From Lachnospiraceae bacterium UBA3850 (GTDB taxonomy: Bacteria; Bacillota; Clostridia; Lachnospirales; Lachnospiraceae): a DNA stretch of 62,447 nucleotides. The position numbers and the translations under genes were made by a program. Under the pieces are notes generated by a model. That model was given only the letters and a program-made list of their open reading frames with translations, was not told where the DNA came from and ran no database searches. Location of the stretch: the NCBI GenBank assembly GCA_002392655.1, contig DGHK01000059.1:1-62447 (forward strand), written 5' to 3'. Every line of letters starts with the position of its first letter. Position 1 is the stretch's first letter. Shown one piece after another: positions 61,495-62,447 of the stretch.

Positions 61495-62154
61495 ATGAAA
61501 CAAAATGTATTAATGATTCTTGCATCAGGCTCACCGCGAAGAAAAGAACTCCTTCAGCAGGCTGGGCTGGAATTTGAAGTTTTAGTTAGTGACGTAGAAG
61601 AAATAATAACAAAAATGTCACCTGAAGAGGTTGTTCTTGAGCTTTCTGATCAAAAATGCAGTGCTGTATGCAAGGATTTTACAACCCAAACACCGGATAA
61701 TCTAAAGGATATCATAGATATAAAAACCGGAGGAATACTTATAATAGGCGCAGATACAGTTGTTTCATTGGATAAGAGGATTCTTGGTAAGCCCGCAGGA
61801 CCAAAAGAAGCATTAAGCATGCTCATGAGTCTATCAGGAAGATCGCATGAGGTATATACAGGTGTTACTTGTAAGGTTTTGAAGTACAATATATTTACAG
61901 ACAGCTTGCTTGAAACAGATAAGTTTTCATTCTATTCCGAGACCAAAGTTAATATGTATCCTTATGATAAGTACGAAGCACTAGATTATATAGCTACAGG
62001 AGAACCAATGGACAAAGCCGGTGCATATGGAATTCAGGGAATTGGCGAACGACTTGTTGAATCAATAAGCGGCGACTATAACAACGTCGTAGGATTCCCA
62101 CTCAGCAAATTTATGAAAGAACTCTCAGAAAGAGAATACATAACCTACGAATAA
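61495..62154 (+). CDS. maf: Maf-family nucleoside triphosphate pyrophosphatase
   Basis: 219 aa. The N-terminal ILASGSPRRKELLQQAGLEFEV, the catalytic region IIGADTVVSLDKRILGKP, SGRSHEVYTGVT, and the C-terminal DKAGAYGIQG are the Maf signatures. Maf enzymes remove modified or canonical pyrimidine NTPs (dTTP/UTP class) and affect septation when overexpressed. There is a small insertion around TTQTPDNLKDIIDIKTGG compared with the usual 190-200 aa. The mreB/minD genes often nearby are beyond the window, if present. Confidence 0.93.
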   Translation: MKQNVLMILASGSPRRKELLQQAGLEFEVLVSDVEEIITKMSPEEVVLELSDQKCSAVCKDFTTQTPDNLKDIIDIKTGGILIIGADTVVSLDKRILGKPAGPKEALSMLMSLSGRSHEVYTGVTCKVLKYNIFTDSLLETDKFSFYSETKVNMYPYDKYEALDYIATGEPMDKAGAYGIQGIGERLVESISGDYNNVVGFPLSKFMKELSEREYITYE

Positions 62155-62204
62155 TTCAATAAATCAAATATCATAATAAATCCCTATTTTTCCCGCTAAA
62201 TTAC

Positions 62205-62233
62205 TTGATTTTCACACAAAAGAGTAGTATTAT
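62205..62233 (+). promoter_or_regulatory. Promoter ahead of the four-way-junction element
   Basis: TTGATT (62205-62210), 17 bases, TATTAT (62228-62233), one base off the -10 consensus. A transcript from about 62240 would enter the structured element after about 35 nt. Confidence 0.6.
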
Positions 62234-62275
62234 AAAAATATGTATTTATTCGTGAAACCATAGTTTTGCGAAAAT

Positions 62276-62440
62276 AAAGCCGTGCAAATATGCGAAAGTA
62301 GTGCCTCGTGCATGCTTGCATGCTAAGAGGTGCTATCTTGCGCATATTTATACGGGCGACAGCCCGTGATCGCGAGTCATAAGGTGACGTAGTCACCGAC
62401 GCACAGCTTGCTGGGCGGACTCGCGATTGGCACGGCTTTT
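62276..62440 (+). ncRNA. Four-way-junction structured RNA candidate (unassigned)
   Basis: 165 nt. The closing stem AAAGCCGTGC (62276-62285)/GCACGGCTTT (62430-62439) encloses three arms. Arm 1: AAATATGCG/CGCATATTT (62286-62294, 62341-62349), stacked directly on the closing stem, then GTAGTGCCTC/GAGGTGCTAT (62298-62307, 62327-62336) with three G-U pairs, and GCATG-CTTG-CATGC at the tip. Arm 2: ACGGGC-GACA-GCCCGT (62352-62367). Arm 3: ATCGCGAGTC/GACTCGCGAT (62369-62378, 62418-62427), branching into GGTGAC-GTA-GTCACC (62383-62397) and CAG-CTTG-CTG (62404-62413). CUUG is a stable RNA tetraloop and appears twice. A promoter lies upstream and TTTT follows. It contains no ORF. It could be a free ncRNA or the leader of a gene beyond the window. 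Confidence 0.65.
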
Positions 62441-62447
62441 ATCAAAA

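Follow-up and report, generated by a model that had tools for sequence, protein, structure and literature searches.

Several described systems resemble parts of the locus reported here. BOX elements of Streptococcus pneumoniae are built as boxA-boxBn-boxC (PMC3049150), Rickettsia palindromic elements and bacterial MITEs are short palindromic inserts (PMC10969869), difSL/XerS modules pair a recombination site with one recombinase gene (PMC5357621, PMC2731167), and the STAXI motif is a structured sequence found near integrase genes (PMC2864571). We analyzed a 62,447-nucleotide stretch of DNA from Lachnospiraceae bacterium UBA3850 (the window; positions 1–62,447 of contig C62 of genome G000 in our set, a contig that continues to 104,416), in which a first-pass annotation had singled out a 165-nt four-way junction at 62,276–62,440. 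We estimate a probability of roughly 0.72 that this structure is one copy of a new family of small, composite, probably mobile palindromic elements that is dispersed in Lachnospirales and is not in Rfam 15.

The minimum-energy fold of 62,276–62,440 had an energy of -92.2 kcal/mol (z = -9.3; 0 of 200 shuffled sequences folded as low), and every part described earlier, namely the coordinates, the 10-bp closing stem, arm 1, the 6-bp arm 2, the 10-bp arm 3 and the two CUUG tips, was present in it. The opposite strand folds nearly as strongly (z = -7.6). On the + strand, the closing stem, P1, pairs a 5′ strand at 62,276–62,285 with a 3′ strand at 62,430–62,439, both supported by the fold and by covarying pairs. 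Within it, the fold places P2 (arm 1; 62,286–62,349), a long hairpin with a CTTG tip; P3 (arm 2; 62,353–62,366), with the loop GACA; and P4 (arm 3; 62,369–62,427), a three-way junction of its own whose two inner hairpins, P4a (62,383–62,397) and P4b (62,400–62,417), are each supported by covariation as well. Searches of Rfam at the gathering score gave no matches in the window or in nine related loci, and the three matches given by the region 62,100–62,447 at E ≤ 10 were weak and lay in the AT-rich stretch upstream of the structure; the earlier statement that no known riboswitch or non-coding RNA family has this layout was therefore borne out. The proposed T-tail fared less well: TTTT is present in the window, but it is not a conserved terminator, since the closing stem ends TTTA, CTATA, CTCATA or in other ways in relatives, and with end sequences that differ in this manner the element lacks the GC hairpin and T-run of an intrinsic terminator. 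A pattern scan of viral contigs and a blastn comparison with phages and plasmids gave no match. Retrons, group II introns and integron attC sites were set aside on layout alone.

Upstream of the structure are the gene maf (ORF at 61,495–62,154, + strand; gene name as in the first-pass annotation), a homologue of which adjoins the element in 7 of 13 loci examined by tblastn, the window's own included, and a 26-mer, TTCGTGAAACCATAGTTTTGCGAAAA (62,249–62,274, + strand), that stops 1 nt short of the structure. With up to three mismatches allowed, the 26-mer had a single match in each of 40 of the 61 genus genomes and two matches in none. In the complete genome G005, the one genome in which skew was examined, GC skew changes from +0.042 (180–185 kb) to -0.143 (185–190 kb), and the dif-like site lies at 183.2 kb. 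Reading beyond the 3′ end of the window for a downstream gene, as had been suggested, revealed 195 Ns, a piece whose end again resembles that of the element (GGTTCAGCGATTGGCACGGCTTTA), and then a 367-aa tyrosine recombinase, for which the best NCBIfam model is XerS (228 bits, under the cut-off of 267) and the Pfam family is Phage_integrase. The flanking site thus shows single copy, a GC-skew switch (from one genome) and an XerS-type gene alongside (with a family score below the cut-off), and by the criteria given in the available parts of PMC2731167 and PMC5357621 the 26-mer probably represents the dif of a single-recombinase module. Judged from sequence, the element probably sits between the site of chromosome separation and the gene of the enzyme that probably acts there. 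L108, which is closely related to the window's genome, has three consecutive P4-type modules ahead of xerS, so the run of Ns is probably an assembly gap over modules of this kind. Gut Lachnospiraceae thus have a single XerS-like recombinase (L032:1301–2404) and a probable dif that belongs to it; the systems described in the parts of the cited accounts available to us are those of streptococci and lactococci.

A sigma-70-like promoter, TTGATT-17-TATTAT, lies upstream of dif at 62,205–62,233 (+ strand), where it had been reported. The same layout was found in G005, G033 and G043, and with TTGAAA in G041 and G055. In G015, G030, G050, G052 and G053, which keep the structure, no promoter upstream of dif is clear by eye; a crude promoter-pattern scan, a weak test that overlooked the plain promoter of G016, found weak hexamers at best in these five. 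AGTAGT boxes flank dif on both sides, at 62,223–62,228 upstream and at 62,297–62,302 downstream, inside the 5′ arm of P2 (both + strand). Within one mismatch, the upstream box was present in 29 of 40 dif loci (shuffled mean 8.6) and the downstream box in 31 of 40 (shuffled mean 9.3), the latter at +21 to +25 relative to the dif core whether the site is filled or empty. In direct orientation, at about -26 and +22 to +25, the boxes flank dif in most of these loci, irrespective of whether a promoter is recognizable, and are possibly accessory or promoter sites. A promoter-like TTGNNN-17/18-TATNCT was found 3′ of dif in several empty sites and, by the same pattern scan, in 0 of 14 filled sites; therefore, the promoter upstream of dif is probably the one that drives xerS in the window, and dif and the element would then lie within the xerS leader.

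The element was present at 14 of the 40 dif loci (in G016 without arms 2 and 3) and absent from 26. The named relatives are Lachnospiraceae and "Eubacterium sp.", several of them annotated as ruminant gut. Thirteen of the filled loci, together with L108, gave 14 full copies, in all of which the closing stem begins 0–5 nt past the dif core. Folded one by one, these took mostly one shape; the exceptions were L108, with the lower part of P2 broken, and G015, with a plain long hairpin as P4. The covarying pairs in relatives that the first-pass annotation had named as a test were found: in a hand-made alignment of the 14 homologues, 41 of 58 pairs had changed on both sides, and the covariation score was 0.461, against a mean of 0.182 for shuffled alignments and at most 0.093 for slid versions. 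In a tree of 34 XerS proteins, 10 of them from filled sites (10 of 15 filled sites were usable), the filled sites all fell in one clade with 100/100 support that also includes two empty sites, one of them (G059) with an apparent remnant. At dif, the element thus seems to have entered once and mostly stayed. Dif and the element together are inverted relative to maf and xerS in G030 (L006/L053), the xerS start is ~1.2 kb from dif in G050, and no xerS was found within the ~1.5 kb examined beyond dif in G015 and G053.

These observations bear on two readings tied to this locus. The first is that promoter, dif and cloverleaf form the xerS 5′ UTR, a cis-acting RNA leader whose fold controls xerS expression. 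The order promoter-dif-element-xerS in the window's genome and several relatives, the strong covariation and the excess of G-U over A-C in P2 agree with such a role, and a structured leader of xerS is possible in genomes with that order, the window's included. However, the fold is kept where xerS is ~1.2 kb away or outside the stretch examined, and where dif and element are inverted; it recurs after atpE, ychF, tuf, groEL and other genes; and it has few G-U pairs. We consider a leader function a rather improbable explanation of the structure. Of the earlier proposal of a non-coding RNA class or a structured leader, the leader stands as possible at such loci, and the stand-alone RNA is improbable, the structure being one of many dispersed copies. 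The second reading is that the palindrome cluster is an accessory DNA element of dif that aids XerS/FtsK recombination or terminus processing. It would account for the 0–5 nt spacing in the 14 full copies, for retention in one clade despite compensated changes in the type of P1, and for AGTAGT boxes on both sides of dif, one within P2; with 26 of 40 dif loci lacking the element and the same fold at many non-dif loci, we regard it as very improbable.

Dispersal was measured with a covariance model, R1. Matches at E ≤ 0.1 were found in 47 of the 61 genus genomes (1–9 each, the window's genome included), and at order level matches at E ≤ 0.001 were found in 33 of 295 genomes and 23 of 130 genera, again with the window's genome and genus included. 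The window's genome has four matches, two of them weak, and one relative has up to nine. Against a 600 kb background from G005, the model found only the two copies already known there, one of them also as a reverse-strand shadow. Sixty non-dif copies were read out; they span 130–216 nt, with the full fold in most and truncation or rearrangement in some, and share a recurring plan: P1, P3 and a long P2 whose tip is of the CTTG type, usually joined by P4. All of 16 order-level matches inspected had P1, P2 and P3, and most had a P4-like hairpin. The number of P4 modules varies, from none in G016, which lacks arms 2 and 3, to three in L108 and arrays at ychF, and 3′ parts of copies are often in tandem repeats. 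At ychF, L233, L238 and L249 each have a single P1 5′/P2 half followed by tandem arrays of the 3′ half (P3, P4 and the P1 3′ strand). A single genome, G038, has four closely similar copies (L173, L176, L177 and L181), at least three of which adjoin GTGACAA/TTGTCAC-type palindromes.

The dispersed copies are placed unevenly relative to genes. The nearest left gene, present for 58 of the 60 copies, is in the sense orientation in 45 cases and antisense in 13; beside genes, 33 copies are in tandem sense and 7 in antisense orientation. Thirty-two of 60 copies begin between -32 and +12 nt from a sense stop codon, and four have convergent stops within 20 nt of their right end. The copy-bearing gene ends include those of genes that, from their translations, we take to be atpE, ychF, tuf, groEL, fabG and rpsI. 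Replication strand was set aside as the determinant of orientation, because it is not independent: local GC skew follows the gene strand. A trans-acting RNA or an mRNA stability element, that is, a new RNA class spread by duplication, would fit the position of these 32 copies at stop codons and of several copies 3′ of core metabolism and translation genes. It fits poorly with orthologous sites that are often empty and with triloops that obey the DNA mini-hairpin rule C-GNA-G, both described below, and we think it improbable.

Orthologous sites were compared at three loci. At the ychF-lgt spacer (30 loci), the full element was found in G043, G008, G052, G016 and G050, and a 3′ remnant in G005 and G059; other hairpin sequences occur in G007, G031 and partly in G044 and G023, and the remaining loci, including that of the window's genome, have no such element. 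Between atpE and atpF (30 loci), G007 and G045 have a full copy, G027 and G001 a partial one, G003 and G058 one of another type, and the remainder none. At the end of an ABC-ATPase gene, readable in 29 of 30 loci, uninterrupted proteins end MVQEA, MVQEG or similarly, and those at filled sites end MVQDVQSQSK (G043, G005), MVQDRQ (G052, G050) or MVQDEQ (G001); G051 has a truncated copy, G055 a scar consisting of the P1 hairpin only, and G009 and G046 have kept P1 and part of P4. In L252 and L254 (ychF) and in L214 and L232 (atpE), the same intergenic sites are taken up by other hairpin elements, which have a tip of the CTTG type but differ in their 3′ part. Copies of the family are dispersed, share a fold, carry tandem modules and occupy sites that are filled, empty or scarred in different genomes, and it is this site polymorphism and the scars that suggest mobility. 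Read by eye, the filled and empty pairs at ychF, atpE and the ABC gene established no target-site duplication. P1 is present as a terminal stem, its sequence varies, and no fixed terminal repeats were found in the copies. Y1 genes are present in 36 of the 61 genus genomes; model R1 had no match at E ≤ 1 in 20 chosen Y1/RAYT loci, and mobilization of the RAYT/IS200 type was set aside, the flanking of RAYT genes by copies that marks REP/RAYT systems being absent from these 20 loci.

P2 varies in an unusual way. When ten copies from different loci, all of one subfamily, were compared, identity over the outermost 18 nt of the 5′ arm of P2 was 0.61 (shuffled 0.58; 45 pairs), which is near random, and over the P3-P4 part it was 0.74 (shuffled 0.58). 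Within one locus P2 can be conserved: four ychF copies, with that of G008 left out, had alike P2 sequences (0.76, shuffled 0.58; 6 pairs). The P2 of the G008 copy differs by eye, and the filled ABC sites have several P2 sequences that differ by clade. An identity measure that included the tip gave no separation, and the trimmed measure separated between loci. The 5′ arm of P2 at dif seems to consist of native flanking sequence, because AGTAGT is at the same distance in filled and empty sites. The idea that the P1 and P2 5′ arms are always native target sequence is not general, as empty ychF and ABC sites do not have these arms. A guide-like P2 was also set aside: in a search of the window's genome, a first arm matched only its own copy, exactly, and a second matched its own two arms and one site with two mismatches, with one match per strand for a reversed-pattern control. 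That the family is a new class of single-stranded-DNA hairpin element, gaining a fresh P2 stem of ~20 bp at each insertion and possibly copying the site's sequence into the inverted arm, strikes us as unlikely.

The first-pass annotation had taken G-U pairs in arm 1 as an argument for a + strand RNA. In the hand-made alignment, the 14 sequences give 254 Watson-Crick, 24 G-U, 3 A-C and 31 other cells for the P2 stem; the remaining helices, including the P2 tip hairpin, have 570 Watson-Crick, 2 G-U, 2 A-C and 14 other cells, so that the excess there is confined to arm 1 and the argument carries less weight than it was given. The dispersed copies have 74 G-U and 25 A-C cells. G-T pairs are tolerated in single-stranded DNA too, and an excess of G-U over A-C therefore does not decide between RNA and DNA. 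By one automatic procedure, the G-U share of paired cells in variable pairs was 3.1% for the element and 13.9% for RNase P from 24 sequences of the same genus (16.7% in 11 of these). Among 118 triloops in 74 copies, with related copies counted separately, 91 had the form C-GNA-G and 3 the reverse-strand equivalent. GNA and GNNA loops on G-C pairs are described as extraordinarily stable DNA mini-hairpins, with a Tm of 78 °C for GCGAAGC, in the part of PMC4686876 available to us. The pair and loop statistics look more like those of DNA hairpins than of RNA, and hairpins of coding-strand DNA seem to us somewhat likelier than an RNA function.

We therefore favor a family of composite, probably mobile palindromes. 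A copy has a P1 closing stem, a long P2 hairpin whose tip is of the CTTG type and a short P3 hairpin, along with a P4 module prone to loss or tandem repetition. The copies are probably non-autonomous mobile elements, perhaps spread or lost by way of single-stranded DNA hairpins; those inside transcripts would fold as RNA too, with possible effects on the surrounding messages. The copy at the window's locus would descend from one that inserted between dif and xerS in a clade's ancestor and has mostly been kept since. Several points weigh against this reading. No transposition event was observed, and no mobilizing enzyme was found, the 20 chosen Y1/RAYT loci being without a copy; the sense bias (33 versus 7) and the excess of G-U over A-C also fit a role at the RNA level. 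In addition, the P1 and P2 5′ arms resemble the native flank of empty sites at dif and not at ychF or the ABC gene, so that one insertion mechanism does not yet cover both. No such family in Lachnospiraceae was named in the titles and abstract openings, largely of open-access papers, that we searched. A strongly covarying "RNA" structure can thus be a dispersed palindrome of DNA-like appearance, and two cheap discriminators are the G-U rate relative to RNase P of the same genomes and the type of loop. A probable dif/XerS site is now proposed for a genus of gut Lachnospiraceae, and with the family in 23 of 130 sampled genera of the order, its mode of movement is testable from strain collections.

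In layout, compared by description and not by sequence, the element is closest to pneumococcal BOX as set out in the available parts of PMC3049150. Like BOX, it is a repeat that is small, composite and dispersed, is predicted to have extensive secondary structure, and contains an inner module whose tandem copy number varies and which hardly interacts with the outer parts; both dispersed copies within one genome and variable module number were found here. Unlike BOX as described there, it has a four-way junction, with P2 stems that vary among copies and P1 ends that are not constant; BOX ends in terminal inverted repeats, for which a match to an IS element has been proposed, and its host order is different. 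As far as the account in PMC10969869 goes, the element resembles Rickettsia palindromic elements and bacterial MITEs as palindromic inserts of ~150 bp, and resembles the former in that the end of a host ORF can change, here at the ABC-ATPase gene; however, Rickettsia palindromic elements encode peptide inside ORFs, whereas many copies of the element lie just past a stop codon, and MITEs have terminal inverted repeats and direct repeats, fixed forms of which were not found in the copies. The locus shares with difSL/XerS an inverted-repeat site at the terminus that adjoins one XerS-type gene, but its protein scores under the NCBIfam XerS cut-off (228 versus 267), and the window's locus has a structured element between site and gene, of which the available parts of PMC5357621 and PMC2731167 make no mention. 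According to the part of PMC2864571 available to us, STAXI consists of repeated pseudoknots, often with UUCG loops, in contrast to the element, to which no Rfam family matches; the two have in common a structured sequence near integrase genes, for which the STAXI authors discuss possible single-stranded DNA.
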